Shown piece by piece: positions 5,836-35,705 of a DNA stretch of 48,584 bases. The stretch is from positions 1 to 48,584 of IMG/VR virus record IMGVR_UViG_3300047551_001195, one strand, 5' to 3'. Source of the DNA: a virus. Numbering within the stretch: position 1 is the stretch's first letter; the number at the start of each line of letters is the position of its first letter. The notes beneath the pieces were generated by a model. It saw nothing but the letters and a program-made list of their open reading frames with translations. It ran no database searches and was not told where the DNA came from. The translations under genes and the position numbers were made by a program.

Positions 5836-6096
5836 TTAGCCACCCTTGGCTTTCTTCCAAAGGTCTTTGTCGGCTGTATGACGAGTCTTACCGCCAACGA
5901 TGAACGAATTCACCCGTGCGAGTGCCCATGCGTGAGAGTTCGCACCTGGTCTGTGGCCGCCCTTCCAAGCCCCCATACCCCTGTCATAAACTTGTTTCAG
6001 AATACGATAGGAAATGCCGCTCTTGGCCGACTTCTTTTTCAGAGCCTCAATCTGGGCTTCTTTTATATTTAGACGCAAGTCTTTGAATGGTTTCAT
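5836..6096 (-). CDS. DUF5824-like small phage protein with capsid-targeting-like leader
   Basis: 86 residues. The core SYRILKQVYDRGMGAWKGGHRPG and HAWALARVNSFIVGGKTR is the DUF5824 pattern that is widespread in phages, sometimes as a free protein and sometimes as a module of larger proteins; its function is unknown. The N-terminus MKPFKDLRLNIKEAQ fits a T4 internal-protein leader with cleavage after I-K-E. The start overlaps the end of the 1294-residue gene (TAATG), so the two are probably translationally coupled. Confidence 0.7.
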   Translation of the reverse strand: MKPFKDLRLNIKEAQIEALKKKSAKSGISYRILKQVYDRGMGAWKGGHRPGANSHAWALARVNSFIVGGKTRHTADKDLWKKAKGG

Positions 6097-9000
6097 TACT
6101 TTTTCTCTGGGTCATTGCCCCAAATCTTCAGGGCAAGTAACTTACGGGTCGGCTTTCCATCGGGTTCACGCAGTTTGCCCTTGGCTCCTGACATACGATT
6201 GATGAAGTTGATTTGACGCTTTGCCCACTCCCAATCGTTATCGGTCCAAGTCTCTTTCTTACGCTTGAGCATACGGACGATGGCTCGGGCGGAGTCACGG
6301 CCAGATTTAATCTTACCGCCTTCCGAACCCGCCTTGCCCGCCTCCTTACGACTCAATCCCGCCTCTTCGCCCTCTTCGGAGTCAATGAAGTCAGAGAGTT
6401 CTTTGGGGGACATATTGACGAGTTTAGACCACTCCTTGTAGATAGCGTCCTTCTCTTCTTCGGCCACTTCGTTGATTCTGCCTCGTTCACCTGGCGTGTC
6501 GTGCTTGTAAGTCTTGACAATCTTGTCAGTCCCGACAGGCAACGGACCTCTTGGTCCCTTGGCAGTCCAATCCCATGCGCCTTCTATGACAATCTCTCTG
6601 TAGATTTTGTCAATCGCAGACTCAACCATATCGCCCTCAGGCTCTACGGAATCGTTGTGCATCTTCCATGCGGTGGCATAGAACACTTCCTTCCAACGGC
6701 TTCCATATCGCTTCTGAAACTCTTTCTTGATTTTCTCTTTCTTGGAGAAGCGACGAGCGGGGCCTGCGGGCGGGCTGACCTCTGTCATGAGATACTCCAC
6801 ATCCTCGTCAAGCGTGGTCTGCTCGTTCACATAGTTTTCATAGACCCGTTCCTTCTCCCATTCAACGAACCCACGATAGACCTCTGCGGCCTCGTGATGG
6901 CCCTTGACCTTGGAGATGCGCTCCATCTCAAGAGCCTTGTTGATGCGCTTCTCAAACCCATAGTGTTCAAACCCTTCAATCATGGACAGGGCCGAATCAA
7001 CCTCAAACTGGTTCTTGATGGCCTTCAATGCCCCGCCCTTTTTGGCGAGTTGCTTGAATGCCTGAGTGTACTTGGACGGCTTGGTCTTGATATCCTTCTC
7101 TTTGGGGTCGGTGAACTCCCATGTCTTGGGGTCATCATCGGGGGCATCCTGACGAGCGGCTAACTTCTTCTTGCGAGCCACAGCCGCCGTCTTGGACAAG
7201 CCCTTGACATACTTCTTGGGCATTCCCACCTCTTTGTCTTTGGGGGAACCCTTGGTCTTACCCGTCTTGGTGGTATACTCCTTGCCTTTACCAATATCAG
7301 CCTCAGAGACGGCCTCGGTCTTGCCCAGTTCGCCCTTCTCCTTATCACCGCTGTCACGCTTGATTTTACCACGAGCGGCCAGACGAGCCGCACCCGTGGA
7401 GCCAACGACTTTCATCGCCTGCCCATAGGTCACATCGGTCGTTCCGTGCTTATCTTTAATCTTGTCAAGCAGGGTGTCAAGGTGGCCCTTCATTGCCTTG
7501 CCCTTGAACGCCAAGTCCGCCTCGGCAATACCCTCGCCCTCGGGCGTGTAGTCCATGGAAAGGAACATGGAAAACTTCTGTGCGGCGAGATTCAGTTTGG
7601 CCGCAATCGTGTGTGCGCTCACATCAGCACCCGTGGTTGTGGCGATAGAGTTTGCCACATCCATGAGGGAGTGGAAAACATACTTCTGAACTTGCTTACC
7701 GTATTCGGTCTTCAAGAACTTGTGTACGAATGTTGCGATGATTCCCGAAGCACCCAAAGCGATGGCGAGTTGCGCCATGAACTTGTTTTTGACTTCATCC
7801 GCCTTATTCTTGTATTGTTCGTCGCTGACTTTGCCCCGCATTTTAATCAAGTCTACTACACCGCTCAATACGGTAGGCGATTTGGCAACGGTTCTCATGG
7901 CGTTTACCAGTTCGGCCTTCGCCATCTCGGTCAGGACAGCCTCGGATAACTCTTCTTCCTCTTCTTCATCGCCTTTTCGTTGTGAACCAACTTCGGGTTG
8001 AGGATAGATGGCCTCGGCGGGGTCAACGGTGAAACCCGTCTTGCTGAGGAACTGAAGTCCAAGGAGAACCTTGGTGGACATATGACTACGGTCGCCGATG
8101 GAGAACTTGATGTTTGGAAACTTTTTGCCATGGAACTCGATATCCATCAGCACTACCATACGCTTCTTTTTTCCAATACCACTCTTAACCGTAATACGAC
8201 TGACAATCTTCTTGGTGACTTTCTTTCCGTTCGGAAGAACAAAGGTGGCCGTATGGTCTCCGTTATCCTTGATGTCCGTGGCGTGAATCATGTTGTAGCC
8301 GCTGTTGCCCGTGTCAACTTTGGCCTTGTATTCCACACCGTCGATCTTAACGGTCTCACGGACAGCAAGATTTGAGAACAACTTCCAATGAGCCTTGTTG
8401 GTCAAATAGTCCACGAAGTCCTCAACCAGTTCCTCACCCTTAACATTATCCTTACCCTTGCCATCCTCGTAGTAGCGGTAGTAGATGTTTCCACTTCCTG
8501 GACTGGCGTTCATCTCAATGATGTAAGGCTTGCCGTCATTGATTACATGGTCAATGCCGACATAGTAGCACTTGCTGACCCGTGCGGCTTGCTCCACCAA
8601 CTTGATTTCCTCGTCAGACAGTTGGAACGATCCACCCTTAGAACCACGGGCGATGTTCGTACGGAAATCCTTGGGGGCCTTGTCCCGCTTGGCACAGGCG
8701 AAAATCTTGCCGTTCAGGACGATGCTACGAACATCGTTCTTGAAATCAGGCAGGAACTCCTGAATGATGACCTCGGCCTCGTACTTCCACAGGGTCTGGA
8801 GAACGCTCTTGAGGCTCTCCAAACTCTCAATCTTGGACACGCCGATGCCTTCGGCTCCTGTAAGGGTCTTGACGATGACGGGGAACTTGCCACCGATTTC
8901 CTTGACCGCCGCTTCCACATTTTCCTCGTTGGCGACGAACGCCGTGCGTGGGTGTGGGAGGCCGTGCTTCTTGAGGGCGATGGCTGTCTCCAACTTATTG

Positions 9001-9980
9001 GCACACAGTTCCATACCGCCACGCTCGTTGACCATGAACACGCCGTTGTTCTGGAGGATGGTCATGATGGCGACACCGATATCGCTGTTCATCACGCCAC
9101 CACGAACCACACAGACGGTGTTGGCGGGGTCAATCGTGATGTCACTCTCTTCGCCGTCATAGTTGCGAATCTTAATCTTCTTGGAAGTCACGGCTGAAAG
9201 TTCAACCTGAGCCTTGCTTGTCTTGATGGCATAGAATGTAATGCCCTTCTTCTTACAGATTTCACCCATTTTCTCAACGGTGTCGCTGAGGTCGTTCTGA
9301 GACGAGGTGAGGGCGAGGATGGTCACATCGGGCTTATCTTTAGTTTGCTCAAGGACAAACTCTTCCTTGAGACCCATGCCCTTGCGGACATCGTTGTAGA
9401 GTTGTTTCTTGAGGGTTTTATTTGAGCCAGGCACGCCGAGCGAGAAATTGGCAAAGTCACCGCTAAAAGCCGCCGCTCGCATCTTGGAAGCGGACATACC
9501 TGACACGCCAGATGACGCTTCGTCCCGTGCTTCGCCCGCCACTACAACATTGAATGTATCAAATGAGTATGTGCGCTTGCCTGTTGTATCCTTTTTACCC
9601 TTATACGAACCAATCTTTTGATAGTCAGCAAGGTGGTCATCGCCCGTGATGACGGTGATGTTCTTGTAGCCGAGTTCGCAGAGATAGAGAACGGCATCGT
9701 ACGGATTGATGGCCTTGTTCAGGGGAACATTCGCCTTGGGGAAGAACTTCTTGAGATATGTCACCTTCTGAGTGTGAGTCAGGGGGTTTCTCTTCGGGTC
9801 TTGTGTCTTGGAGACGAACAAGAAATGGTCGGCGTTCTTGGACTTAGCGAGCGAGAGCAACTTGTCAACCACGACACCGTGGCCGATGGTCGGAGGGTTC
9901 ATGCGTCCGAAGGCGAAGACGGCGGACTCCTTGCGAGCCTCTTGAAGTTGCGTGCCGTGTTCCGTGAACTTCCGAATCAT
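6096..9980 (-). CDS. Giant multidomain protein: nucleotidyltransferase + ATP-grasp ligase + retropepsin-like protease + phage DUF modules
   Basis: 1294 residues. Residues 18-205 form a cytidylyltransferase-type domain with the HIGH-like GRMNPPTIGH (25-34) and SGMSASKMR (160-168). Residues ~215-525 form a RimK-like ATP-grasp with K371, metal ligands in IIEMNASPGSG (487-497) and an LPHPRT pre-ATP segment. Residues ~540-655 match RimK-associated retropepsin-like proteases (PF05618 type): KVDTGNSG (D556-T-G) and DRSHMSTKVLLGLQFL (630-645). An acidic linker (672-677) leads to a helical region, a DUF5872-like part (901-970), a KKEFQKRYG..VFYATAWK module (1085-1106) and a C-terminal conserved module (1198-1292). 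The N-terminus has a leader-like L-Q-E at 12-14, and L/I-x-E sites occur near linkers. It starts in an ATGA overlap with the ligase-like gene and is probably packaged. Confidence 0.8.
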   Translation of the reverse strand: MIRKFTEHGTQLQEARKESAVFAFGRMNPPTIGHGVVVDKLLSLAKSKNADHFLFVSKTQDPKRNPLTHTQKVTYLKKFFPKANVPLNKAINPYDAVLYLCELGYKNITVITGDDHLADYQKIGSYKGKKDTTGKRTYSFDTFNVVVAGEARDEASSGVSGMSASKMRAAAFSGDFANFSLGVPGSNKTLKKQLYNDVRKGMGLKEEFVLEQTKDKPDVTILALTSSQNDLSDTVEKMGEICKKKGITFYAIKTSKAQVELSAVTSKKIKIRNYDGEESDITIDPANTVCVVRGGVMNSDIGVAIMTILQNNGVFMVNERGGMELCANKLETAIALKKHGLPHPRTAFVANEENVEAAVKEIGGKFPVIVKTLTGAEGIGVSKIESLESLKSVLQTLWKYEAEVIIQEFLPDFKNDVRSIVLNGKIFACAKRDKAPKDFRTNIARGSKGGSFQLSDEEIKLVEQAARVSKCYYVGIDHVINDGKPYIIEMNASPGSGNIYYRYYEDGKGKDNVKGEELVEDFVDYLTNKAHWKLFSNLAVRETVKIDGVEYKAKVDTGNSGYNMIHATDIKDNGDHTATFVLPNGKKVTKKIVSRITVKSGIGKKKRMVVLMDIEFHGKKFPNIKFSIGDRSHMSTKVLLGLQFLSKTGFTVDPAEAIYPQPEVGSQRKGDEEEEEELSEAVLTEMAKAELVNAMRTVAKSPTVLSGVVDLIKMRGKVSDEQYKNKADEVKNKFMAQLAIALGASGIIATFVHKFLKTEYGKQVQKYVFHSLMDVANSIATTTGADVSAHTIAAKLNLAAQKFSMFLSMDYTPEGEGIAEADLAFKGKAMKGHLDTLLDKIKDKHGTTDVTYGQAMKVVGSTGAARLAARGKIKRDSGDKEKGELGKTEAVSEADIGKGKEYTTKTGKTKGSPKDKEVGMPKKYVKGLSKTAAVARKKKLAARQDAPDDDPKTWEFTDPKEKDIKTKPSKYTQAFKQLAKKGGALKAIKNQFEVDSALSMIEGFEHYGFEKRINKALEMERISKVKGHHEAAEVYRGFVEWEKERVYENYVNEQTTLDEDVEYLMTEVSPPAGPARRFSKKEKIKKEFQKRYGSRWKEVFYATAWKMHNDSVEPEGDMVESAIDKIYREIVIEGAWDWTAKGPRGPLPVGTDKIVKTYKHDTPGERGRINEVAEEEKDAIYKEWSKLVNMSPKELSDFIDSEEGEEAGLSRKEAGKAGSEGGKIKSGRDSARAIVRMLKRKKETWTDNDWEWAKRQINFINRMSGAKGKLREPDGKPTRKLLALKIWGNDPEKK

Positions 9981-11179
9981 TGGTTGACCTTTCTATTCTG
10001 CCGACTGAAACGAAGACGATTGACCAACTTGACCACTCGTCCCGAACGAGCGATGACGAAACCTTCTGGGTCGGTGGGACGAATGCCGTCCTCATCAACA
10101 AAGAAGTGGCCGAACTGCGAGATGCCATGGAGTTTCGTCAGAATCATCTCCTTCACATTCGCAATCATGTTGTGTAGAGTGAATAAATCAGTGAACTGCT
10201 TATCGTAAGCGTTGATAAAGTTGAGGGCCTTGTTCATCATCTCGGTCTTCGCTTGTTGACCCTTCTGAGTCTTGAGTTTATTTATATCCTTTTCAAACTT
10301 TGTCTTCACTACCTTTGCGAAACCAGACGCTGAGAACTGACTCAGACCTCCGTTGATGGTTCCGTTGATGTAGGGCATCAGATACTCCACCACATCCTTG
10401 CGAGAGAGTAGAGTAGGTAAAAAACCCGATACTGCTTTGGCGAGACTCTCGGCCTCACCGATTTTGGCGAGCATCGGGGCTGACTCGTCTGGTTTGAGGA
10501 GGGCAGGGGTGATGTCATATACATTCGGGTCCGTGAACCACACATCGGGGTTCTTCTTGAGTTTGCTTGAGTCAAAGTTGAAGGTGGTGGCCGACAGGCT
10601 CTCCATTGTCTTACCCGTGTAAGCCGTATGGAACACGATGCCTACCTTGGCCTTGGCGATGGCCTTGCCCACCTCACTATCGGTCGGGGTCGTATAAAGG
10701 ATAGTATTGGGTTGAAACCCGATGGCCTGCTTCTTGTTCACCGAAAGCGTTTTTTTGTTGTCGGCGGTGAACAGGAGGTCGCCCTGAAGGACACCCTTTA
10801 TACCCAACTTGGGTAGGTGCTTGAGGCACTCAATCAGTTTGGTCGCAAGGTCGGCAGGAAAGCCCGCCGCCTTGATTTCGGCTTCTGTATGGTATGCCTT
10901 GACCGTCTTGCTGAAGGCCGATTTAGTGGAGACGAAGAACTTGCCGCTACTGGGGTTTACGCCGCATACAACGGCAGGCTTGCCATCCCACTTGACAGAC
11001 ACCCCCATACCCGTCTGACCCGTCTGGAGGCTTTGTACGATGTCCTTGAGGAAGGCTATGGACAGGGCCAACCCGTCCTTACCCTGAAGAATCATGAGGT
11101 CTTCTATGTGGTCAAGGTGCTTGTTGAGAGACTTCTCTTCGTTCAGGTTATGTTCGGAATGTCCCGAAAATGAAAGCAT
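9977..11179 (-). CDS. DUF6267-type protein; predicted covalent nucleotidyltransferase (DNA/RNA ligase-like)
   Basis: 400 residues. VSVKWDGKPAV gives a KxDG motif I (K63-W-D65-G66). GVLQGDLLF (129-137) fits motif III, GIVFHTAY (180-187) fits IIIa, DPEGFVIAR (370-378) fits IV and VVKLVN (382-387) fits V of the ligase/capping superfamily. This is the phage DUF6267 family, which is generally annotated as unknown. The ligase reading is inference from motif order and spacing. The N-terminus (MLSFSGHSEHNLNEEK) has the leader-like L-N-E. A late promoter (CTAAATA) and a TTGGAG site precede it, and its stop overlaps the start of the giant nucleotidyltransferase protein, so the two are one unit. Confidence 0.7.
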   Translation of the reverse strand: MLSFSGHSEHNLNEEKSLNKHLDHIEDLMILQGKDGLALSIAFLKDIVQSLQTGQTGMGVSVKWDGKPAVVCGVNPSSGKFFVSTKSAFSKTVKAYHTEAEIKAAGFPADLATKLIECLKHLPKLGIKGVLQGDLLFTADNKKTLSVNKKQAIGFQPNTILYTTPTDSEVGKAIAKAKVGIVFHTAYTGKTMESLSATTFNFDSSKLKKNPDVWFTDPNVYDITPALLKPDESAPMLAKIGEAESLAKAVSGFLPTLLSRKDVVEYLMPYINGTINGGLSQFSASGFAKVVKTKFEKDINKLKTQKGQQAKTEMMNKALNFINAYDKQFTDLFTLHNMIANVKEMILTKLHGISQFGHFFVDEDGIRPTDPEGFVIARSGRVVKLVNRLRFSRQNRKVNQ

Positions 11180-13024: not shown

Positions 13025-13390
13025 TCAAAATTTTAAATCAGATGGAAGTATTTTTTCTGAAATACCAACATTTCTTTCTACTGGAATTGCATAAGCGGTA
13101 GTGTATCCACTCGGTTTAGTGTCGTTGATAATAACCCTTGCTCCTTTTGGTAAACCCGACAATATGAAATCAAAACGAAGTTTATTTTGAGCGAAAAATT
13201 CTTTGATATATTTTTCAGATTCTTTGTCTCTAGCGGTCGCAATTATTATTGTATCATCGGGGTGTATTTTACTAAGGAATTCCTTTACTCCTGGCAGAAG
13301 TGTGTCAAATCCTTTTGTGTCATATCCACCATGTTCGACCAAAGTTCCATCCAAGTCAAATATCCAAGTGTTGGCTAGTCTGTCGATCAT
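13025..13390 (-). CDS. HAD-family phosphatase of the sugar pathway
   Basis: 121 residues from the ATG at 13390. This start forms an ATGA overlap with the upstream gene and has AAGGA 6 nt before it; a longer frame exists upstream but is not needed. Motif I is IFDLDGTLV (nucleophile Asp ~10), motif II is IIIATARD and a late acidic site is VIINDTKPSG. It is a compact HAD without a cap, like phosphatases found in LPS/capsule clusters. Being last in an operon with an SIS isomerase and a nucleotidyltransferase-kinase, it probably dephosphorylates a sugar phosphate intermediate. It is AT-rich compared with the replication genes. Confidence 0.75.
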   Translation of the reverse strand: MIDRLANTWIFDLDGTLVEHGGYDTKGFDTLLPGVKEFLSKIHPDDTIIIATARDKESEKYIKEFFAQNKLRFDFILSGLPKGARVIINDTKPSGYTTAYAIPVERNVGISEKILPSDLKF

Positions 13391-14892
13391 TGATATTCCT
13401 TCAAATAGCCATCCCACATTTCAACTGCTTTATAAAAAGCGATGATTATAGAACTATAATCCTCCACCACATAACCACACAAAGAAAACCATATTAAAAT
13501 ATGAAGTAAGTCTATTTCTCTTCTAGAATACGGAATTGATTTGAAGAAAATATCTTTGTAAGACTCCCAACCATTTTCATCTATTTGAAAGAAAATTTTA
13601 TTTTCATTGACGCTTACGAAATAATGTTTGGCGTTGATATTGTCATAGTTTCCAAAAAATGAGTAATACAACTTAGCCCAATCATATCTCGGGTCACCAA
13701 AGTATTTCTTCTTTCCAAAATATCCTCTCGGATCAATAAAGAAACACTTGTTGTCAATTGATATTATGTTTGAAAATGTACAATCTCCGTGTATTACTCC
13801 AAACGCCACTTCTGTCTTGAGTAAAACTTTTTCGATTTCATCAGTTAGTTTTTTCAAATCAAAAAATGGATTTACTCTTTCAACGCCATTTATAGTTATA
13901 TTTCTTTGTTTAGCCAGAGGAATAATGTCAACAACAGACTCAACCCTTTTTATTGTTTTGTTTATGTAAACCTCTCTCATCTCTTCGACATCACACGGAG
14001 AAGATTCAAGATCATGAACTCGCTTAATCTGTTTTATAATGTCAGAAAAAAGTTCTTGATTTGGTTCTTTTAAAAAGGGGTTTACACCATTCAATCGAGT
14101 CATTGTGTATGGGGTTTCGCTTATAATAGCGGGCACTCTGTCAAACCCTTTATTTCTTATAAAAGAGTACCAGTCAATTTCATCATGAATCAATTTTTCA
14201 TATTCCTTCACAACCGCCCGCTTCTTTACAACATCATTTTCAATTATAACCTGATTGAAATATCTGTTGTTGGACTGATACCTTTCAAAAGATGAGTATG
14301 TCCCAACATCAATTATATTTTTTATTGGAAAAGTTGACCAAGATTTTTTACTTGATTCAAGATAGTCTGTAAATGACCCAAACTTTGGTATGTCTTGCAG
14401 AACACTTTTGTCTTTAACTACAAATAAACCTGAAATCCCATTCTCAAAATTTTTTTCTTCACGAAGGAGACCATTATCTGCTTTCCATCGACATTCAAAA
14501 GAACATTCTTTATTTGTTACGCCAATGCTTATATCCTCTGGTCCCAGTTTTGGATATTTTATTTCTGATAAAAACACCAAATCTGACCAAGTTATAATAA
14601 AAGATTCTTTTTCTGGAATTAGTGAGGCCGCTTCCAGTATGCCAGAACAAGTACCTTTTTCCTTGGTGATAATATATTTAATATTTGAGTTGGGTCTAAA
14701 TTTTTTTGAGTACTTTATAAGAACATCAGACAAGTGATCACAAATGACATAGAAAATCGCATCTGGATTTGTATCAATCAGATGAAAGAGTATTGGTTTT
14801 CCTTGGATGGGTATGAGTGATTTTGGTTTTGCGGATGTCAGATTTCCCATTCTGCTTCCAATACCACCCGCTTGAATAATAATATGTTTCAT
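13387..14892 (-). CDS. Bifunctional sugar/choline-type nucleotidyltransferase + phosphotransferase
   Basis: 501 residues. Residues 1-210 are a GT-A-type nucleotidyltransferase: IIIQAGGIGSRMG (4-16) and KPKSLIPIQGKPIL (22-35), as in LicC and sugar-1-phosphate nucleotidyltransferases. Residues ~225-490 are an aminoglycoside/choline-kinase-like domain with the catalytic loop VIHGDCTFSNI (366-376) and the metal site FIDPRG (385-390). A kinase and an activating transferase in one chain suggest phosphorylation and then NDP/CDP activation of the same small molecule. The neighbours (SIS isomerase, HAD phosphatase) make a heptose- or KDO-like nucleotide-sugar route plausible, but the substrate is unknown. 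Codon use is strongly AT-rich. Confidence 0.8.
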   Translation of the reverse strand: MKHIIIQAGGIGSRMGNLTSAKPKSLIPIQGKPILFHLIDTNPDAIFYVICDHLSDVLIKYSKKFRPNSNIKYIITKEKGTCSGILEAASLIPEKESFIITWSDLVFLSEIKYPKLGPEDISIGVTNKECSFECRWKADNGLLREEKNFENGISGLFVVKDKSVLQDIPKFGSFTDYLESSKKSWSTFPIKNIIDVGTYSSFERYQSNNRYFNQVIIENDVVKKRAVVKEYEKLIHDEIDWYSFIRNKGFDRVPAIISETPYTMTRLNGVNPFLKEPNQELFSDIIKQIKRVHDLESSPCDVEEMREVYINKTIKRVESVVDIIPLAKQRNITINGVERVNPFFDLKKLTDEIEKVLLKTEVAFGVIHGDCTFSNIISIDNKCFFIDPRGYFGKKKYFGDPRYDWAKLYYSFFGNYDNINAKHYFVSVNENKIFFQIDENGWESYKDIFFKSIPYSRREIDLLHILIWFSLCGYVVEDYSSIIIAFYKAVEMWDGYLKEYQ

Positions 14893-14901
14893 ACTACACT
14901 C

Positions 14902-15558
14902 TCAAAAATTTATACCTCGATAGGCTACAACCATTCCAGTTTCACTGTCTGGTAAAATATCAGACCAAAAATAATTTTTTGAATATTTATTTTTTAGTTC
15001 CGATATTGCACCATACAAACTGCAATATTTTACATCGTGAAAAAAACAAATTGAGTTTTGAGATAAGTATGGCTCGATGGCCTCAAAGTCTAAAACTACT
15101 TGCTCGTTGGTATGAAGACCATCAATAAAAACAAAGTCATATTCCTTAAATCTCAATGCTCTAGGCGTGTCTACAGGTGAACTTCCGATTGTTAAGTTTA
15201 TATCAAGATTATATTTTTTGGAAAGTTCTTTGGTTATTTGATTTCCTAGCGCATTTGATGATCCTTCCGATTGATTGTCAATAACATCAATCGAAGAATT
15301 AGGAAAAAGTTCTGAACAAAATAGAGTGCTAAATCCAAATGCGTTTCCAACAATAAAAATTTTGGGACAGATGTTAGGATTTTTTTGGGAAAAACTTTGA
15401 AATAAATTGAGATCACTCAGGGGTGCGCCCCAACCCGTACCTAAGCCATTTATATGAAACAAAAATTCGTGAATCGTATCCACTTCATACCCATGACCTT
15501 TGTATTTTTCGGTAACTTTTTGAAATATTTCAATTGTTTTTTCCGAAACATTCAGCAT
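14902..15558 (-). CDS. Class I SAM-dependent methyltransferase (Methyltransf_24-like)
   Basis: 218 residues. IFIVGNAFGFSTLF (~69-82) fits the glycine-rich SAM loop (motif I), SSIDVIDNQSEG the acidic residue after strand 2, and YDFVFIDGLHTNEQV the DxDGxH site common in methyltransferases of sugar and O-antigen clusters. The ICFFHDV strand follows. Probable role: O- or N-methylation of a sugar or glycan in the same cluster. It overlaps the end of the SIS gene. The ribosome site is AGGAG 9 nt upstream. Confidence 0.75.
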   Translation of the reverse strand: MLNVSEKTIEIFQKVTEKYKGHGYEVDTIHEFLFHINGLGTGWGAPLSDLNLFQSFSQKNPNICPKIFIVGNAFGFSTLFCSELFPNSSIDVIDNQSEGSSNALGNQITKELSKKYNLDINLTIGSSPVDTPRALRFKEYDFVFIDGLHTNEQVVLDFEAIEPYLSQNSICFFHDVKYCSLYGAISELKNKYSKNYFWSDILPDSETGMVVAYRGINF

Positions 15559-16129
15559 TTCCCTTTTCTCCTATGTCGCCGCCCGGATGATTTCGATAAA
15601 AATCTTGAACTGTGACCTTTTTGTAGTCCACTATTTCCATTGCAATTGTGTGCAATACAATCAAATAATTTACAAGCGAGCAGGTGGGTACTCTGTTCCA
15701 CGGATCACATTCCTCTAAAAATGGAATATAAAAATCAAAATCACTCCACTTTTTTAATGAAGCAGAATTGTTAGAGTGAATCAAAAATATCTTAGATCCG
15801 CAATTTCTCGATTTTATTTTTTGACAAAAGAATTCAAGTTCTTTTGTATTTCCACTTTTAGATATCATGATGACGACAGAATTCTCATCAATCAATCCCA
15901 TATCACCGTGAACAGAGGAAACGGGATCAATCGCTATCGAACGAATGGTCAAAGAATTAAAGGTAGATGCAATTATGTTTGCTATATGAAGATTTTTGCC
16001 AACTCCTGTAAAATACAAGCATCTAGAATCTTTTAATAAATTGAAAAGTTTATCAAACTGATACTCATCTATCGAGGAGATCATATGATCTATTGATTCT
16101 TTATTCTTTTTTACAACCGAGTATTTCAA
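15530..16129 (-). CDS. SIS-domain sugar-phosphate isomerase (KpsF/GutQ-like)
   Basis: 199 residues with a single SIS domain: YFTGVGKNLHIA, SSVHGDMGLIDENSVVIMIS, KSGNTKEL and the C-terminal NHPGGDIG, which resembles the HPGG.LG end of arabinose-5-phosphate isomerases. It has no CBS domains, unlike full-length KpsF/KdsD. It probably interconverts a ketose- and an aldose-5-phosphate (or acts like GmhA on sedoheptulose-7-phosphate). The start is a TTG at 16129 behind GAAGAGGCGG. The frame continues directly from the stop of the upstream gene, so only one TGA separates the two readings. Confidence 0.75.
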   Translation of the reverse strand: MKYSVVKKNKESIDHMISSIDEYQFDKLFNLLKDSRCLYFTGVGKNLHIANIIASTFNSLTIRSIAIDPVSSVHGDMGLIDENSVVIMISKSGNTKELEFFCQKIKSRNCGSKIFLIHSNNSASLKKWSDFDFYIPFLEECDPWNRVPTCSLVNYLIVLHTIAMEIVDYKKVTVQDFYRNHPGGDIGEKGNAECFGKNN

Positions 16130-16147
16130 TTCCGCCTCTTCATCATT

Positions 16148-17029
16148 TCAAATACAATTCAGCAATAAATCTCTCATGTCAAATGAATTGTCGTTGCTAT
16201 TTATTGAGATTTGGCGAGCATGATTTTTAAATCCATACTTTTTCATATCTATCCAGTGTGCGTCTTGTATATTTGAAGATTTGACAAGAGCAACAAATAC
16301 CTTGGATTCATCCTTTAGATTTATTTTTGTCTGAGAGAAACAAAACGGCCCACTTGATCGGCCAATAATTACACTACACCAATTTGACAGATATGATATC
16401 TCATTCAAATTACATGAGTCCTTTTTAACCCACACATTCGCATTGACAACATTATCAGCCACAACTGATGTTTTATCCGTAACAAATATAATTTTTTCTG
16501 GATATTTCTTCGAAAGTTCGCTGATAGTGGGATCAAAATTGAAATTGTGACTTTGACCCGACCAACAATCACCGTTACAAATTAGAATATTATTTTTTTC
16601 TTTGGGAACTTCAAAATCTATATCGTAAACACCGTAATTGATTTCGGGTATGAAGTTTTCAATAGGTTCCATCTCTATTCCAAGTTCTTTGGCGTAAAAT
16701 GAAAACATATTATAGTTATTTTCTATATTACAGGCGGCGGTATTTCCTTTCATCCATTTGAAATCAGAACTACCAATCCAAGTATTTACAAAAAGTTTAT
16801 CATCTAGAATAAACATACCGTACTCTCTTTTTAGATGAGATGGGTATGAAACATAATCACAACCTATATCGTGTTGATGAAATGTGTTGGGTTTTTGATT
16901 GTGTGTATAATAAGCGAATTTATTAATCCCCACCCCTGCTCTTATGTGCTTCACGAAATTCCTACTGAAGTGTAAGTCTCCATGGTGGTATGGATTAAAA
17001 AACACAATAGATGAAAATTTGTTATTCAT
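16148..17029 (-). CDS. Putative GT-B-like glycosyltransferase
   Basis: 293 residues from the ATG at 17029; a TTG two codons upstream is an alternative. It is AT-rich. The N-terminal part (IVFFNPYHHGDLHFSRNFV) and C-terminal part (SNWCSVIIGRSSGPFCFSQ) resemble the ADP-heptose-type GT-B layout, in which the second domain carries a G-x-S-S-G-P nucleotide-sugar loop. No catalytic residue can be named with confidence. Its context between glycosyltransferases and the SIS isomerase supports a glycan role. Confidence 0.55.
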   Translation of the reverse strand: MNNKFSSIVFFNPYHHGDLHFSRNFVKHIRAGVGINKFAYYTHNQKPNTFHQHDIGCDYVSYPSHLKREYGMFILDDKLFVNTWIGSSDFKWMKGNTAACNIENNYNMFSFYAKELGIEMEPIENFIPEINYGVYDIDFEVPKEKNNILICNGDCWSGQSHNFNFDPTISELSKKYPEKIIFVTDKTSVVADNVVNANVWVKKDSCNLNEISYLSNWCSVIIGRSSGPFCFSQTKINLKDESKVFVALVKSSNIQDAHWIDMKKYGFKNHARQISINSNDNSFDMRDLLLNCI

Positions 17030-17038
17030 TTGCAACTA

Positions 17039-17704
17039 CTATCTTATAGATGAATTATAAGTTCCTATTTCACTACCTTGGTAAATCAATGATGGCTCGG
17101 CCCAATACATTGTCAGTTTATTTTTTTCTTTGGGAGGTCTTCCTGTAAATCCTTGAATTTCTAGCCACTGCCAGTCAATCGGCCAAGAAAAGGGAATAGA
17201 ATTTTCAATAAAAATTTGACAAGACTTCGAAGTCAACAATTGAGAGAATGCACATCTTGTTTGAAATGGAATTTTTTTGTAGATTCCATATTCTTGATTC
17301 GTATTTTGTATTTTTAAATTACAGCAAGATCCAAGTGAAACTATATCGCAGTCCTCAGGAATAGTTTCAAAAATTTCATCAAATTTTTCTATAAAATTAT
17401 CAGAAAAAACAGCGTCATCCTCTAGAACAATAGCATAGTCGTGTTTGTTTTTTATAATATCCTTATATGCCCATATGTGTGCTATGGTGCATCCGATTTC
17501 GGATAGATTCAATTTTCTTTCGTATATTTTCGGATCAAATTTATAGAAGTTGCCTATAACCTCTTCGGTCAAGTCTTCTCTCTGGCCCTCAGTAACCCAA
17601 ATCGCCGAAATCTTATTCCGACCAAACCAAGAAGAAAGATATTTTTTTCTTTCAATATTCGCCTTGTAGTGTACGACATAAAATGGAATATCACGAATTT
17701 TCAC
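17039..17704 (-). CDS. Family 25 glycosyltransferase (LPS type)
   Basis: 221 residues with a GTG start at 17704 preceded by GGAGG and overlapping the upstream stop (GTGA). PFYVVHYKANIERKKYL at the N-terminus, SEIGCTIAHIWAYKDI (~67-82) and YAIVLEDDAVFSDNF (~90-104, with the EDD metal site) are the standard GT25 landmarks found in LPS galactosyl/glucosyltransferases. The acceptor is unknown. It is part of the AT-rich part of the glycan cluster. Confidence 0.85.
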   Translation of the reverse strand: MKIRDIPFYVVHYKANIERKKYLSSWFGRNKISAIWVTEGQREDLTEEVIGNFYKFDPKIYERKLNLSEIGCTIAHIWAYKDIIKNKHDYAIVLEDDAVFSDNFIEKFDEIFETIPEDCDIVSLGSCCNLKIQNTNQEYGIYKKIPFQTRCAFSQLLTSKSCQIFIENSIPFSWPIDWQWLEIQGFTGRPPKEKNKLTMYWAEPSLIYQGSEIGTYNSSIR

Positions 17705-18522
17705 GACAAACTCCTCCCAAAATTTTCAATACTTTTTTTCCAATATGAAAACTTTAGTTTTTTGATGTTGAAATTGCTTATTTCACAAAAGTATGAAATT
17801 TTACTCTTTAGTAGTTCATTTGTGACATCCTCATAAGAGTCAACGAGTAAAATCGGGAGATCCTCAAAATACCTTGTGTTTGTATTTCTTTTCACTACGG
17901 GAATTCTTCCAAGATAAAGAGTCTCCCACATTCTATGTGTATCTATCCCATTACCACGAGGACATAGAACATACTGATGACTCAAAACATCGTCTAGCCA
18001 ACTTTCATAGTTTGCTTGAGTGACAGAATCTGAACATTGATCAGTGCAACCCAATACATTTTTAATGATTACTTCTCTGGCGGATCTTCTCTCAGTTTGA
18101 TTTGTATTGATGCTGAAATTCAAATACAAAAGTTTATCGTGAGATACTGTTCTTTTTTCCAAAATCTTTCGCCGCATCTTCTTTATTTTTTCGATCTCTG
18201 GAAAGTTATAAAGATTTTCCAATCCTATTGGGAGAGATTGTATGATTGGGTCTGGGCGACATTCAATATTTTGCCCGAACCACATCTTTAAGTTCGGAAT
18301 ACGCTTGGCGATGTCGAGCATTTTGTCGCATACGGGTATATCGCCATTGTGGGTTACAAAAATGAATGGATGTGGTATTGCCGAGAGATACCTTATTAGC
18401 ACATGAGGTGCATAATCTATTTTGGAATAAAAAATGTTGCCCCGAGCGCATGATTTTGCAACTTCGGGAAAAAGTTCCCCACGAATGTAGTCCGATTCAT
18501 CAATAAATGACAAGTCAAGCAT
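17701..18522 (-). CDS. Exostosin-like glycosyltransferase (GT47 type)
   Basis: 273 residues. The C-terminal half has YVLCPRGNGIDTHRMWETLY, then LGRIPVVKR and LPILLVDSYEDV, the exostosin-family nucleotide-sugar site in which the CPRG and E residues are conserved. The N-terminal half (HPFIFVTHNGDIPV) is the first Rossmann-like part. It is short relative to eukaryotic exostosins but typical for viral and bacterial versions. It sits between two other transferase genes with 1- to 4-nt overlaps, so it is co-translated. Confidence 0.75.
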   Translation of the reverse strand: MLDLSFIDESDYIRGELFPEVAKSCARGNIFYSKIDYAPHVLIRYLSAIPHPFIFVTHNGDIPVCDKMLDIAKRIPNLKMWFGQNIECRPDPIIQSLPIGLENLYNFPEIEKIKKMRRKILEKRTVSHDKLLYLNFSINTNQTERRSAREVIIKNVLGCTDQCSDSVTQANYESWLDDVLSHQYVLCPRGNGIDTHRMWETLYLGRIPVVKRNTNTRYFEDLPILLVDSYEDVTNELLKSKISYFCEISNFNIKKLKFSYWKKSIENFGRSLS

Positions 18523-19433
18523 TACATGAGTTCCCTGAGTTTTTTACAATGAACATGGATGCTCATGATCTTCGTTTTCTCTCCCGTATTCTTATTGAAA
18601 ACGGAGAAGAACCTTCTTCCATTTGAATCATATTCTTGATAGAACCCCCAACACCCCTCCTTGAGTCTCTGATGGATATAGTGGTCGGGGAATAAGCACC
18701 CCTTCGGAGTTCCACTGTTGTCGCCAAGGAAGTGTTGCCCAATACTGCTTGGGTCAAAAATTCCTCCAAGGATTTTGTTGTGATCCGAGAAATCACCATT
18801 CACCCATGTAGGAATGTAAGCAATGTAATCACTTCCCATCTGCTTGAGAAGGTAGTGCCATATTTGCATATCATACATCTGGCAGTTCGGTGTGGAAATA
18901 ACTTTCCAAACCATGTCATTTATCACCGATAGAGCATCACAATCTTTGATGTAACACATACCAAAGACAACTTTATAGTAAGAATCAGCGGTAATAGCGG
19001 TTCTCTTGAATAGCGAGGACATAATAGATACCACTCGATCCGCTTCAAAATAGACAAGAATATCATTGTCAAAGGTAAGAACATCTTTGAGACCGTGCTT
19101 ACGCATGACCTCTTCGATATAAAATGTTCTTATTGTTCCATGCCGAGAAATAGGATCTTTGTGTTCGCTCATGTACGATACACTCTTAATATCGTATCGA
19201 GTGGGCAGTTCATCCGTCTTCTCGTGAATGACATTGAATCGTGCAAAGTTCTCGTAATTTGGGATTTCATTCCCATCTGTTATCATGTAGATGGGTGTGG
19301 TTGGATTCCACTTTCTGATCTGTTCAATACAATACCATATGTGATTAGTCCATGGATCATAGTAAACATTGTTTAGGGGGTTTCTGCTCAATCCCCTGTC
19401 TACTCCTGTATTGTAAAGAACAATGTTTGCCAT
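18522..19433 (-). CDS. GT-A-type glycosyltransferase
   Basis: 303 residues. PIYMITDGNEIPNYENF near the N-terminus and DVLTFDNDILVYF (~118-130, with a D-N-D metal-binding motif) fit a GT-A fold; MYDMQIWHYLLKQMG and IHVHCKKL near the C-terminus would close the acceptor site. No CAZy family was assigned by eye. The gene abuts both neighbours and belongs to the glycosyltransferase run. Confidence 0.65.
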   Translation of the reverse strand: MANIVLYNTGVDRGLSRNPLNNVYYDPWTNHIWYCIEQIRKWNPTTPIYMITDGNEIPNYENFARFNVIHEKTDELPTRYDIKSVSYMSEHKDPISRHGTIRTFYIEEVMRKHGLKDVLTFDNDILVYFEADRVVSIMSSLFKRTAITADSYYKVVFGMCYIKDCDALSVINDMVWKVISTPNCQMYDMQIWHYLLKQMGSDYIAYIPTWVNGDFSDHNKILGGIFDPSSIGQHFLGDNSGTPKGCLFPDHYIHQRLKEGCWGFYQEYDSNGRRFFSVFNKNTGEKTKIMSIHVHCKKLRELM

Positions 19434-20320
19434 TATTTGGCATCCTTATCAGCCATGGCAATCCACTTTTTGAGAAAGTCGGGAATAGAATTAAAGAGTT
19501 CCCCATCAATCTTGCCATAGTTTCTAAGCCAGTCTTTGTGAAGATAGGCGATGTCCTTGACACACCAAATTTCCTCGTCTGACAGGAGCATATGAACCGC
19601 CAACCAACGAACTGGGGCATCACCCCAACGATTATAGTAGATTTGTTTGGTTTCTTCAAGGGCTTGGAAGTATGATGTATACTCTTCACCCCTGAAGAAA
19701 GGCAGATTGACTATCTCAAAGTTTGTATAAAAGATGTCCTCTGCCCACTCCCCATTAGTCAACTTTCCTTCCATGGATTTGGGGGTGATTCCCTTCTCTT
19801 TCATGAAAGCCTTCGTCGTTTCCCAAAGTCCAACGGTCACGATGGGATTGTCTTTGCGATATTCTCCGACATATGCGTACTTCTTGTTGTTTTGAGCCAT
19901 GTACTCAAAGACATCGTACTTGATATCAGTCAGTAAATATGAGTCAGAGTCAAGTCTGAGATACCAATCATATTGCTTGAGGGCGGGGTGATTGAACACT
20001 TGTCCGCAGAAGAACCTGCACATATGTCTATAACCCATCCAGAATCGACTGAGTGGCGGGTCGTACATAGATGGGTCCGTGGATACGCCCTCGGGATGTG
20101 TAAATTTCAGGATTTCAAACCTGATGTTTGGAGTGAATCCAAACTCTTTACTCAGGGCGACCATTATGTTCGAAACGGTGACCCGCTGAAGATCATCGTG
20201 GAAAATAATTACTGGGTAGTTGTACTTACTGAGAAAGTTTCTAACCAAAAGCCTGAGGCTATGGTAAAGAAGCGGAGCATCCTGCTCTCTGGACATATAA
20301 ATGATCGCCGCATTTTGCAT
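19433..20320 (-). CDS. GT15-like (Kre2/Mnt1-type) mannosyltransferase
   Basis: 295 residues. YDWYLRLDSDSYLLTD carries the D-x-D site, KKYAYVGEYRKDN follows, and FQALEETKQIYYNRWGDAPV with RWLAVHMLL matches the GT15 hallmark in which a tyrosine precedes RWGDAP. Family 15 is best known as the fungal alpha-1,2-mannosyltransferases, with scattered viral and bacterial members. It has its own late-type element (ATAAATA) and a GAGGAG site upstream, so it may be the start of a sub-operon that reads through the AT-rich genes. Confidence 0.75.
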   Translation of the reverse strand: MQNAAIIYMSREQDAPLLYHSLRLLVRNFLSKYNYPVIIFHDDLQRVTVSNIMVALSKEFGFTPNIRFEILKFTHPEGVSTDPSMYDPPLSRFWMGYRHMCRFFCGQVFNHPALKQYDWYLRLDSDSYLLTDIKYDVFEYMAQNNKKYAYVGEYRKDNPIVTVGLWETTKAFMKEKGITPKSMEGKLTNGEWAEDIFYTNFEIVNLPFFRGEEYTSYFQALEETKQIYYNRWGDAPVRWLAVHMLLSDEEIWCVKDIAYLHKDWLRNYGKIDGELFNSIPDFLKKWIAMADKDAK

Positions 20321-20348
20321 AATTAAGACTCCTCGTTGATTTTGAAAA

Positions 20349-20355
20349 TATTTAT
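20349..20355 (-). promoter_or_regulatory. Late-type promoter element (ATAAATA)
   Basis: ATAAATA 28 nt before the ATG at 20320 with GAGGAG between; likely late expression of the glycosyltransferase genes. Confidence 0.45.
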
Positions 20356-20363
20356 GCGCTCAC

Positions 20364-21014
20364 TTAAAGAATCACGGCGGGCTGTTCACTGGGATTGGGA
20401 ATGAACGGGGCCGCTGTTTCAGATGCAGACCAACGATAAATGTGAAGAACCTTATTAATTTTGTGTTGAGTCTTAGCGATCTTAGTTGCTTCTATTGCAA
20501 ATAAGTTATCCTCTCCCCAAAAAGAATCCCCGAACGAGCATTGATTGGCTAATTCGGTCCTCCATGCACACCAGTGCCAAGGCGGTCTTCTGCATGGAAT
20601 ATAATTTCCATTTTGATCTTTTGGTTTAGGTGGAAGTTGTTCAAACGGTAGACCAGGGTGACTGATGTCGGTTGAAATTAGGAAAGAAACTCCATTTATA
20701 ATTGCCTCTTGATCATAAGCAATCACATCCACACCATCATTCTTCTCGATTGCGTCACACACTTCTTTAACGAAATCAGGTGTCACATCATCGTCATCGT
20801 CAATGATCACGCAGTACTTCCCCTGTGCAATTCTATGAAGAAGTTGACGCTTGCGACCAATCGTCATCGCTTTGTTATCGAGAATTGATATGATTTCAAC
20901 ATCTTTTCTGTCTCCAATCTGAGCCATTAGACGAGCGATAAGGGGTTCCATGTTCATACGAATTCTGGAAGGAATGGATGGAATTGCAATAGTTAGTTTA
21001 AATTCTCTTTTCAT
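20364..21014 (-). CDS. Family 2-like glycosyltransferase
   Basis: 216 residues. TIAIPSIPSRIRMNM opens the GT2 fold. KAMTIGRKRQLLHRIAQGKY precedes CVIIDDDDDVTPDF (D-D-D metal site, ~70-82), followed by a helix and a PPWHWCAWR acceptor segment. GDSFWGEDNLFAIEA supplies the catalytic E-D. It is closely similar in layout to the next gene, with the same 'MTIGRKRxxLL' and 'DDDD' elements, so the two are probably diverged duplicates. Confidence 0.75.
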   Translation of the reverse strand: MKREFKLTIAIPSIPSRIRMNMEPLIARLMAQIGDRKDVEIISILDNKAMTIGRKRQLLHRIAQGKYCVIIDDDDDVTPDFVKEVCDAIEKNDGVDVIAYDQEAIINGVSFLISTDISHPGLPFEQLPPKPKDQNGNYIPCRRPPWHWCAWRTELANQCSFGDSFWGEDNLFAIEATKIAKTQHKINKVLHIYRWSASETAAPFIPNPSEQPAVIL

Positions 21015-21054
21015 TTCTTTCCCTTAGAAAAATTTTACATACCGATCAACGAAA

Positions 21055-21651
21055 TCATCTTTTCACCTGATGGTTATGGGTCTCTTCAAAAGTTTTACCG
21101 CACTTGTATTCATACAGCGTTCCCTCAATCCACTCCTCACGCTGAAGCATAGGGCGGATGTGATGGGAGAAGTATCGGTCTTCGCCGCTGTTCCATGACG
21201 GAAATCCGACCTTGATGGCCAAGTCTCGGCGAACGGCGTTGAGGTGGTTCGGAGGTCGGTAGTATACCTTGCCCTCGTGATCATCCACCCACTTGTCATA
21301 CCGCAAAGAGTGAATGAAGGGGCGGCTGTAGCCATCGGAGAAGGTGATCCTGCCCGTGAGAGAGGTGCAGTCGGGATTCGTCTCCAAAGCCTTCAGGATG
21401 CGTGCCACATAGTCAGGGGGAACCATATCGTCATCGTCAACGAACGCCACATACTGCCCTCTGGACTGAGAGAGAAGCATATTACGCTTCTGTCCAATAG
21501 ACATCTGCCGCTCGTCGGGAACCACAACAATCTCAACCTCTGGGGTTTTTTGCGGAGACAAGGCCGCCATGAGATTATCAAGTCTATCTTTTCTGCTGTG
21601 TAATGTAGGAATAAGAATCGAAAGTTTAATTTGAGATTGCTGTTGATTCAT
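21055..21651 (-). CDS. Family 2-like glycosyltransferase
   Basis: 198 residues from the ATG at 21651, chosen because GAGG is 9 nt upstream; the ATG at 21660 has no room for a ribosome site. ILIPTLHSRKDRL, QMSIGQKRNMLLSQS, YVAFVDDDDMVPPDY (metal site) and NSGEDRYFSHHIRP (catalytic E-D) define the GT2 fold. The C-terminus (KTFEETHNHQVKR) resembles acceptor-binding ends of phage GT2 proteins. It overlaps the end of the upstream transferase. Confidence 0.75.
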   Translation of the reverse strand: MNQQQSQIKLSILIPTLHSRKDRLDNLMAALSPQKTPEVEIVVVPDERQMSIGQKRNMLLSQSRGQYVAFVDDDDMVPPDYVARILKALETNPDCTSLTGRITFSDGYSRPFIHSLRYDKWVDDHEGKVYYRPPNHLNAVRRDLAIKVGFPSWNSGEDRYFSHHIRPMLQREEWIEGTLYEYKCGKTFEETHNHQVKR

Positions 21652-22402
21652 TTTGTACATCCTCTTTCACGGCTATACCAAAGTTTTCAGCCTTCCTTCT
21701 TTCAAAGATCGGTCTATCGTGACTATACATTTCCTGAGACTCGTTTCTTTCGTGAAGGAAGTCTCTTCTAATCTCATTTGGATTAAGTTTTCCGTTTGCG
21801 GCCATTGAATATGGAATTCCTACCCATTGATGCTGAATGATGCACCTATCAGAATAAACTACCTTGTTTAAAAGTCTTGCAACTTGTGTAAATTCATCGT
21901 CGCAAAACACACTCTTGTACTCTGGATTGTAGAGATAACCAAAACGATTGAAATATTTCATACCCAAAATACTCAAGGTAATAAGTTTATCTTGACCAGA
22001 GAATCCGTCATTGTAGTGAAGCACCCCATCCGTGTCTGGGAAGTGCCTCGCCATATCTTTGCAAATGATATCGTCATATCCAGAGACAATCGGAATCATA
22101 TCATCTGAAGCGAGTAGGATGACATGGGGGTTAAGGCGACGAACTATATCGAGGTTGGCGTTACAGGCTTCAATCTTACCCTTTGATGCCCCGTAAGCGA
22201 AGTGAATCCTTCCCTCCATGCGTTGATTGAGCCGCTCTAAGTGACCAATGATGTTTTGATTGTTCATGGACGGGTCATCGTGGTCCATTGAAATCACATA
22301 GTGAACATCTCTCATACCCGAGGCCATGTTGATGTATCGGTTCAGCACATCCACAAACTTGTCTGGTCTCCCCCTCGTGGGGAACTTCACAACGAGTCTC
22401 AT
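21626..22402 (-). CDS. GT-A-like glycosyltransferase
   Basis: 258 residues. LVVKFPTRGRPDKFVDVL opens a GT2-like fold. IHFAYGASKGKIEACNANLD is the nucleotide-sugar helix and VILLASDDMIPIVSGYD the metal site (S-D-D). VFCDDEFTQVARLLNKVVYS holds the downstream acidic pair. Its C-terminus ends in VKEDVQNESTAISN and overlaps the next transferase. It overlaps the small helical protein upstream, so it links the glycan cluster to the uvsX transcription unit. Confidence 0.7.
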   Translation of the reverse strand: MRLVVKFPTRGRPDKFVDVLNRYINMASGMRDVHYVISMDHDDPSMNNQNIIGHLERLNQRMEGRIHFAYGASKGKIEACNANLDIVRRLNPHVILLASDDMIPIVSGYDDIICKDMARHFPDTDGVLHYNDGFSGQDKLITLSILGMKYFNRFGYLYNPEYKSVFCDDEFTQVARLLNKVVYSDRCIIQHQWVGIPYSMAANGKLNPNEIRRDFLHERNESQEMYSHDRPIFERRKAENFGIAVKEDVQNESTAISN

Positions 22403-35499: not shown

Positions 35500-35705
35500 G
35501 GCTCGGGCGAAGCGTCTCGGATGATATAATCAAACTCGGTCTGCCCTGTCTTGAGGGCCTCTCTCAGGTAGGGCTTACACATCCCACACCCACCCCCGCA
35601 CCCAAGGATGCGTTGAATGTCCTCAATCGTCCACCCCTCGGGCCTTGCTCGCTTGATGACTTCCTTGAACGGCGTGTCATAACAGACGCATCGGTCAATC
35701 CTCAT
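35496..35705 (-). CDS. BFD-type [2Fe-2S] small protein
   Basis: 69 residues. Cysteines at C6-x-C8 and C40-x-x-C43 (in GCGGGCGMCKPYL) with a helix between (WTIEDIQRILG) fit the bacterioferritin-associated ferredoxin (Fer2_BFD) fold, which holds one [2Fe-2S] cluster. C36 is an extra cysteine. In bacteria Bfd reduces bacterioferritin to release iron. A ferritin-like gene is encoded about 1.2 kb upstream, which makes a link tempting but unproven. Confidence 0.65.
   Translation of the reverse strand: MRIDRCVCYDTPFKEVIKRARPEGWTIEDIQRILGCGGGCGMCKPYLREALKTGQTEFDYIIRDASPEP

Follow-up and report, generated by a model that had tools for sequence, protein, structure and literature searches.

We analysed a viral DNA stretch of 48,584 nucleotides (positions 1 to 48,584 of the IMG/VR record IMGVR_UViG_3300047551_001195; hereafter, the window), in which positions 6096-9980 comprise a single open reading frame (ORF) of 1294 amino acids with an ATG start, located on the minus strand together with all its domains and joints described below. 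ORF calling and matches to Pfam, PHROG and NCBIfam models indicate a protein in which a nucleotidyltransferase, a RimK-like ligase, a retropepsin-like protease and several modules follow one another behind a short N-terminal label. We propose that it is a polyprotein of the phage head, which would be cut at its joints by a prohead protease and ejected with the DNA. The original prediction, which named no strand, had placed a 1294-residue protein with these three enzymes at this locus, and both the ORF and its motifs were recovered where expected (GRMNPPTIGH at residues 25-34, IIEMNASPGSG at 487-497, D556-T-G and D630-R-S-H-M). A chance origin of the ORF is ruled out by its more than 40 near-full-length relatives and by the invariance of its catalytic positions: H34, R168, K371, E408, E489, N491, D556 and D630 are identical across 14 full-length relatives.

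The nucleotidyltransferase (residues 15-206, positions 9363-9938) belongs to the HIGH superfamily, as its PPTIGH and SASKMR sequences correspond to the (T/H)xGH and SxSxxR motifs, with H34 and R168 among the invariant residues, and its fold is that of a cytidyltransferase. It matches a PHROG cytidyltransferase family at residues 13-216 (E=4e-47) and, by profile, the structure 3gmi (E=3e-5); PF01467 exceeds its cut-off in relatives only. The RimK-like ATP-grasp ligase (residues 212-525, positions 8406-9347) matches PF08443 at residues 328-498 (E=1e-30) and TIGR00768 at residues 237-495 (150.5 bits for a cut-off of 143.4). With Foldseek, an AlphaFold2 model of residues 1-680, with a mean predicted local distance difference test (pLDDT) of 74, matched RimK of Pseudomonas (7qys; E=5e-20, template modelling score of 0.83 to the target), and among viral structure models it matched cytidyltransferases as well as an 'ATP-dependant zinc protease'. 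The RimB/PF05618 retropepsin-like protease (residues 530-660, positions 8001-8393), with D556 and D630-R-S-H-M as catalytic elements, matches PF05618 at residues 541-657 when the isolated domain is searched (34 bits for a cut-off of 27), and its profile retrieves the PF05618-type structures 9g58 (E=1.3e-13) and 2pma (E=1.7e-10) from the PDB. Single-sequence PDB searches with the protease and the nucleotidyltransferase gave nothing significant, matches being obtained only with profiles. Mosig, GN1 and marine relatives, with identities of 27-44%, also keep the D556-x-G-N motif, and D556 is invariant over nine divergent sequences. The three predicted folds are thus supported, and on two points where the original prediction could have failed, the presence of the RimK fold and retropepsin family and the conservation of D556, it holds. 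Assignment to the characterised equivalogs was rejected, both for S6--L-glutamate ligase (PRK10446 model, 72.5 bits for a cut-off of 331) and for RimB (NF052261, 27.6 bits for a cut-off of 200). The combination of enzymes had been regarded as unusual; it is present, but a wide scan retrieved 76 distinct ligase-protease proteins, nearly all from viral contigs, which shows that the RimK-retropepsin fusion is neither unique nor rare in phages.

The N-terminus (residues 1-14, positions 9939-9980; MIRKFTEHGTQLQE/A, the slash marking the putative cut) resembles a capsid-targeting sequence, is kept in relatives and is predicted to be disordered (pLDDT below 50 at residues 1-15). For IPIII of phage T4, ten N-terminal residues are enough to bring about packing, with positions 4 and 7 serving for targeting and positions 8 and 10 for processing, and gp21 cleaves after L/I-x-E (PMC9026906). 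In relatives of the window protein, the label stands directly before the nucleotidyltransferase and reads M-x-x-F-x-x-H-[IL]-x-E/A (e.g. MERFATHITE/A, MKNFAQHITE/A and MLNFSDHNNQINE/A). The shortest relatives exhibit F at position 4, H at position 7, I or L at position 8 and E at position 10, which is the T4 spacing; F is found at position 7 in many stand-alone homologs and in proteins of the Synechococcus phage S-CREM2, and the label of the window protein is built of these elements too, but is four residues longer. What defines T4-type capsid targeting, namely a short N-terminal sequence in which L/I-x-E and then a small residue come after targeting or aromatic residues, is therefore found here, the start codons of some relatives being our own choice. 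Label-type N-termini exceed those in shuffled sequences on the contigs of two relatives (14 vs 4.4±2.1 and 12 vs 4.0±1.8) and in the window (6 vs 1.7±1.3). A gp21-type (S77) prohead protease, PF03420, is encoded in two of the nine relatives' records searched (E=1e-33 and 4e-38) and was not found in the other seven, all nine records being possible fragments. The major capsid proteins of the two relatives with the protease carry NQEQYLRE/S or NQEQYLKE/A near residue 48, within the N-terminal region that corresponds to the 65-residue propeptide lost by T4 gp23 (PMC9026906). A search of the open-access literature for a capsid-targeting sequence in cyanophages returned the T4 review only.

Some further observations concern labelled proteins. 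A contig binned as a Woesearchaeota archaeon (L094) encodes a labelled ligase-protease of the phage type (MKALNFREFISE/E) and is probably a mis-binned phage. By eye, a module of about 45 residues directly behind the label (AKxxGL...W.....G....V.G.L.F) is common to several cyanophage proteins (L092 5698-6882, L093 5677-6891, L252 1816-4677 and L251 7580-9847), including a virion-detected kinase. The large ACG-2014f protein AIX32386, annotated as a cytitidyltransferase, carries the label LLSFLSE/A; no nucleotidyltransferase motif was seen in it by eye, and it was not used as an example.

Hydrophobic-x-Glu sites are found at every joint between domains or modules. The six predicted L/I-x-E sites (residues 12-14, 204-206, 678-680, 683-685, 818-820 and 1169-1171) are all present, and five further sites were identified (VLE at 209-211, VSE at 891-893, LDE at 1057-1059, MTE at 1065-1067 and VIE at 1131-1133); all 11 are located in segments with pLDDT below 50, which make up 24% of the chain. 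Disorder was taken from the structural models, an earlier map of domain cores having put residues 1059 and 1067 inside a core. Joint 1 (positions 9345-9371) comprises LKE/E and VLE/Q, with IPE/A, IFE/A, LWE/A, ISE/A or LNE/A in relatives, and joint 2 (positions 7926-7970) comprises the polyglutamate run DEEEEEE (residues 671-677) followed by LSE/A (680) and LTE/M (685). Joint 3 is IAE/A (positions 7521-7529), joint 4 is VSE/A (positions 7302-7310) and joint 5 comprises LDE/D and MTE/V (positions 6780-6812). Joint 6 is VIE/G (positions 6582-6590), with WLDE/S, WLAE/A or DLIE/A in relatives, and joint 7 is INE/V (positions 6468-6476). The alignment of relatives and predicted disorder support joints 2, 3 and 5, cassette comparison and site conservation support joint 4, and site conservation and disorder support joint 7.

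In 14 relatives, the segments aligned to predicted disorder contain 55 [LIVM]xE[ASG] motifs vs 15.6±3.7 in composition-preserving shuffles, whereas the ordered segments contain 35 vs 40.4±6.4 and are not enriched, values that we regard as descriptive only. This contrast, together with the shuffles, rules out a chance motif. Among conserved sites, all eight with a variable middle residue are in disorder, vs none of the ten with a near-invariant middle (p=2e-5), and 4-8 different residues are seen in the middle position of conserved joint sites vs 1-3 in that of conserved core sites. As a first and a third position that are held around a free second one are expected of a protease recognition site, the joint sites fit this pattern. 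The triplets that the original prediction had also pointed out inside domains (at 408, 463, 489 and 520) are real, but are of a distinct kind, with a near-invariant middle residue and an ordered structure.

The modules behind the protease comprise a helical module (residues 686-815, positions 7536-7925), which is missing from some relatives, a mobile ADLAFKGK... cassette (residues 821-890, positions 7311-7520), an ADIGKGK... cassette with the first half of DUF5824 (residues 894-1056, positions 6813-7301), the module VSPPAGPARRFSKKEK...AWKMH (residues 1068-1130, positions 6591-6779), the short module GAWDWTAKGPRGPL... (residues 1134-1168, positions 6477-6581), delimited by comparison with relatives, and a basic C-terminal module (residues 1172-1294, positions 6099-6467), which matches DUF3140 above and DUF6321 below the cut-off. 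Relatives differ in the modules that they carry from the protease to the C-terminal module, and the break points are hydrophobic-x-Glu sites. The ADxTKGK cassette has four kinds of preceding neighbour and always stands directly behind such a site: this neighbour is the protease in L008 (ELAE/AD) and L019 (EIFE/AD) and the helical module in both L007 and L011, whereas the window protein and L002 have the ADLAFKGK cassette there, and L004 and L014 a SKDG module. The SKDG cassette and the ADLAFKGK cassette each occupy two positions, the latter being placed after the polyglutamate run in L007, and in L050 a VSPP-like module, similar to residues 1068-1130, is found between the nucleotidyltransferase and the ligase instead. 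The DUF5824 model itself is split, with its first half in the polyprotein (a partial match at residues 921-980, below the cut-off) and its second half in the labelled 86-residue gene downstream; in Melnitz and HTVC008M, the second half is located within the nucleotidyltransferase protein, behind LDE or IDE. DUF5824 thus appears to consist of two separable modules. No paper was found for the DUF names in the open-access literature.

The ligase-protease proteins that stand alone relate the label to the joints. Their N-termini (MQVPKFRDFINE/A, MKPIKFNDFITE/A and MEKFKSFITE/E, among others) place [LIV]xE before the ligase in 30 of 32 proteins vs 13.2±2.6 in shuffles, the exclusion of one entry that is a fused protein cut by a contig end (L043) changing nothing substantial. 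All 42 fused proteins exhibit an internal site at most 20 residues upstream of RimK (17.0±3.2 in shuffles), and the stand-alone label occupies the same place as this internal site.

Data on virions are available for homologs. The published virion proteome of S-CREM2 includes the homologous nucleotidyltransferase gp154 (PMC10665884). Among the annotated genes of two stretches of that genome, with structural proteins excluded, the label is present in 8 of 13 virion-detected products vs 3 of 33 undetected ones (p=6e-4); the label pattern was slightly loosened before these sequences were seen, and chance appears to account for some of the eight matches (gp155, gp165). Clear labels among the detected products are MKNFSSFLTE/A in gp154, MKDFDSFLEE/F in the S-adenosylmethionine hydrolase gp6, MKDLHSFLTE/Q in gp13 and MKRFDAFLTE/E in the kinase gp14. 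In YerA41, the ribosomal-protein-modification protein g112 is particle-associated (PMC7354516), and it corresponds by gene order to the RimK-RimB gene of the related phage GN1. As a separate observation, the virion-detected Cas9-like nuclease gp12 of S-CREM2 (L251 4705-7314) exhibits FASFMAE/A near residue 20, perhaps owing to an internal start or a displaced label.

Based on these results, which speak strongly for a polyprotein, we propose that the window protein is a T4-type internal-head (ejection) polyprotein, and we give this reading a probability of about 0.72. Its domains, intact active sites, coincidence of sites with joints, exchange of cassettes and common label, as well as the protease gene in two relatives, are seen in the sequences and models; packaging, cleavage and injection are what we infer from them. 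The N-terminal label would direct the chain to the prohead core, where a gp21-type protease would cleave on the C-terminal side of hydrophobic-x-Glu, both at the label and at every disordered joint. This would release the nucleotidyltransferase, the pair of RimK ligase and retropepsin, and a number of small modules, most of them basic, all of which would remain in the head with the DNA and be ejected into the host as a kit of takeover proteins. In the host, the nucleotidyltransferase may act on a nucleotide or on a substrate of the nicotinamide adenine dinucleotide (NAD) type, and the RimK-retropepsin pair may add glutamate to a host protein and remove it again. This last activity is deduced from the biology of RimK and RimB. 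The host target is the least certain step, with ribosomal protein S6 or some other translation factor as the foremost candidate; in the reported test, the Desulfotalea RimBK hybrid exhibited protease activity and no S6 glutamylation (PMC11957791).

Several points weigh against this proposal. The virion data come from homologs only, none of which is closely related to the window protein; the S-CREM2 nucleotidyltransferase was detected by three unique peptides only, with possible co-purification noted by the authors (PMC10665884), and the YerA41 particle preparation also held many replication enzymes (PMC7354516). The window is a 48.6-kb fragment without head genes. The excess of labels is absent from a third relative's contig (G005, 4 vs 3.0), and a clear label is lacking in L025 and in the stand-alone L199 and L200; the latter two begin with MITVIC, their frame being open briefly upstream with unrelated sequence, perhaps as a result of a split gene. 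Furthermore, the relatives are not independent, so the shuffle statistics overstate significance, and the model of the C-terminal part is weak (mean pLDDT 59), so that disorder there partly reflects low confidence.

The protein could also be packaged without being cut internally, the label alone being removed and the chain acting in the host as one multidomain effector. This is rather unlikely in our view, although large, multidomain polyvalent proteins are predicted to be packed into heads and injected (PMC5512222, PMC9503650), prohead cleavages in SPN3US mostly remove N-terminal propeptides (PMC10052503), and the cuts at the internal joints of the window protein are predicted, none having been observed. 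The internal joints, however, show the same conserved, disordered sites with a variable middle as the N-terminus, the N-terminal label of stand-alone homologs stands at the corresponding place, and in T4, cleavage of gp22 and gp67 yields several fragments (PMC9026906). Even less probable is an ordinary cytoplasmic fusion for metabolism or salvage (of the NAD or glutathione type) that is made early and never packaged. The gene is located between the genes for the baseplate and those for replication (DnaB-type helicase, DNA polymerase and clamp loader), the Mosig homolog is annotated as a glutathione synthetase and stands among replication genes, and the YerA41 homolog is listed with genes expressed before the late phase (PMC7354516), all of which would suit such a role; yet it would leave the capsid label with its T4-type spacing of targeting and processing residues, the joint sites and the virion detection of homologs unexplained.

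Maturation by the prohead protease or by the protein's own protease had both been predicted; the comparative evidence of prohead-protease-type sites at the joints and of the head label favours the former. The retropepsin domain might cut at the adjoining polyglutamate run, in cis or in trans, alone or with the prohead protease. Bacterial RimB cleaves an internal linker of eight glutamates in vitro and in E. coli (PMC11957791), which makes self-cutting at residues 671-677 possible, and the protease is followed by four or more consecutive E in 19 of the 31 distinct proteins with more than 60 residues downstream vs none of the 45 without, an association that is suggestive only, as the 19 proteins are close relatives. 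Conversely, the other 12 of these 31 lack the run and most of them still have hydrophobic-x-Glu there (e.g. TELTE/M), and the scaffold protein of these phages has acidic runs as well. As the remaining joints are devoid of polyglutamate, self-cleavage is conceivable at this run alone. A prohead cut at residue 680 would, for its part, leave the ligase-protease unit with a polyglutamate tail. We consider it unlikely that the retropepsin cuts its own chain in a retrovirus-like manner, or that such a tail serves the injected unit as a substrate or a brake.

The proposed cargo polyprotein can be compared with several known systems. Like the internal head proteins of T4 (IPI-III and Alt), it carries an N-terminal label of about ten residues with L/I-x-E/A that other, unrelated proteins of the phage also have, and a gp21-type protease is encoded in two relatives. 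In contrast to them, a single chain strings together several enzymes and modules, and internal sites recur along it; the T4 proteins are not known to split into several enzymes. RimBK of Desulfotalea and other bacteria and RimABK of Pseudomonas (PMC11957791) also unite a RimK-family ligase and a RimB-type retropepsin with a DTG active site in one polypeptide. The phage-encoded proteins differ in that the ligase precedes the protease, that a nucleotidyltransferase and modules are fused to them and that they score below the RimB equivalog cut-off; the reversed order in the phage members examined rules out membership in RimBK as characterised. The stand-alone phage RimK-retropepsins (Pelagibacter phage Mosig, Yersinia phages GN1 and YerA41, and many IMG/VR contigs) share the order of the domains, the invariant residues and, in most cases, the label, but have no nucleotidyltransferase, C-terminal cassettes or polyglutamate run. 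Conversely, the cytidyltransferase-like virion proteins of Kyanoviridae (S-CREM2 gp154, HTVC008M, Melnitz and C48C1) possess the homologous nucleotidyltransferase, preceded by the same label in S-CREM2, Melnitz and C48C1, and several have DUF5824 modules, but they lack the RimK-retropepsin pair. With the polyvalent proteins of phages and conjugative elements, the window protein shares its size, its several catalytic domains in one polypeptide, the exchange of domains and the predicted packing and injection, while cutting at each joint is not among their features in the part of the description consulted (PMC5512222); none of their companion domains (metallopeptidase, ART, MuF) is among the Pfam and PHROG matches of the window protein. 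The ejection proteins of the giant phages phiKZ and SPN3US are also head cargo cut by a prohead protease (gp175/gp245) C-terminal to glutamate in a short motif, but the described cuts mainly remove N-terminal propeptides and do not separate enzyme modules.

The gene has T4-like surroundings: on one side are genes for the baseplate hub and the tail tube, and on the other those for a DnaB-type helicase, UvsX, DNA polymerase, clamp loader and clamp. Upstream, the DUF6267 gene (positions 9977-11179, minus strand) bears its own label (MLSFSGHSEHNLNE/E), and its last 4 bases, including the stop, overlap the polyprotein ORF at its ATG. DUF6267 has homologs in 466 phage records, mostly of cyanophages, and is labelled in the window, Melnitz and C48C1, which makes it a widespread candidate for head cargo. 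Next downstream lies the 86-residue gene (positions 5836-6096, minus strand), with the label MKPFKDLRLNIKE/A. Two more labelled genes are on the same strand: an NT5C-type 5'-nucleotidase gene (positions 35702-36232, MKDFQQYLTE/A), whose product is possibly injected, and a gene at positions 41420-41863 (MKSFKSYINE/T), the module of which resembles one fused to the L055/L057 nucleotidyltransferase protein after YKEYIAE/Q and also matches the C-terminus of the 602-position family phrog_23027. Between the helicase and UvsX (positions 13025-22402), genes resembling a sugar nucleotidyltransferase, a sugar isomerase and glycosyltransferases were recognised by eye; this run may modify phage DNA or the host surface.

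RimB-RimK hybrids, T4 capsid-targeting sequences and polyvalent proteins were already known. Relative to the open-access literature, the exchangeable, protease-delimited cargo polyprotein and the RimK-retropepsin pair with the ligase first are new. If our reading is true, T4-like phages of lakes and seas would assemble their injected cargo from exchangeable cassettes bounded by prohead-protease sites, and several enzymes would be freed from one chain, a polyprotein strategy better known in RNA viruses and retroviruses. The label would then be a readable sequence predictor of virion cargo in Kyanoviridae and their relatives. A glutamate ligase and its eraser would be among the proteins that possibly reach the host with the DNA, and host translation may be an early target of these phages.

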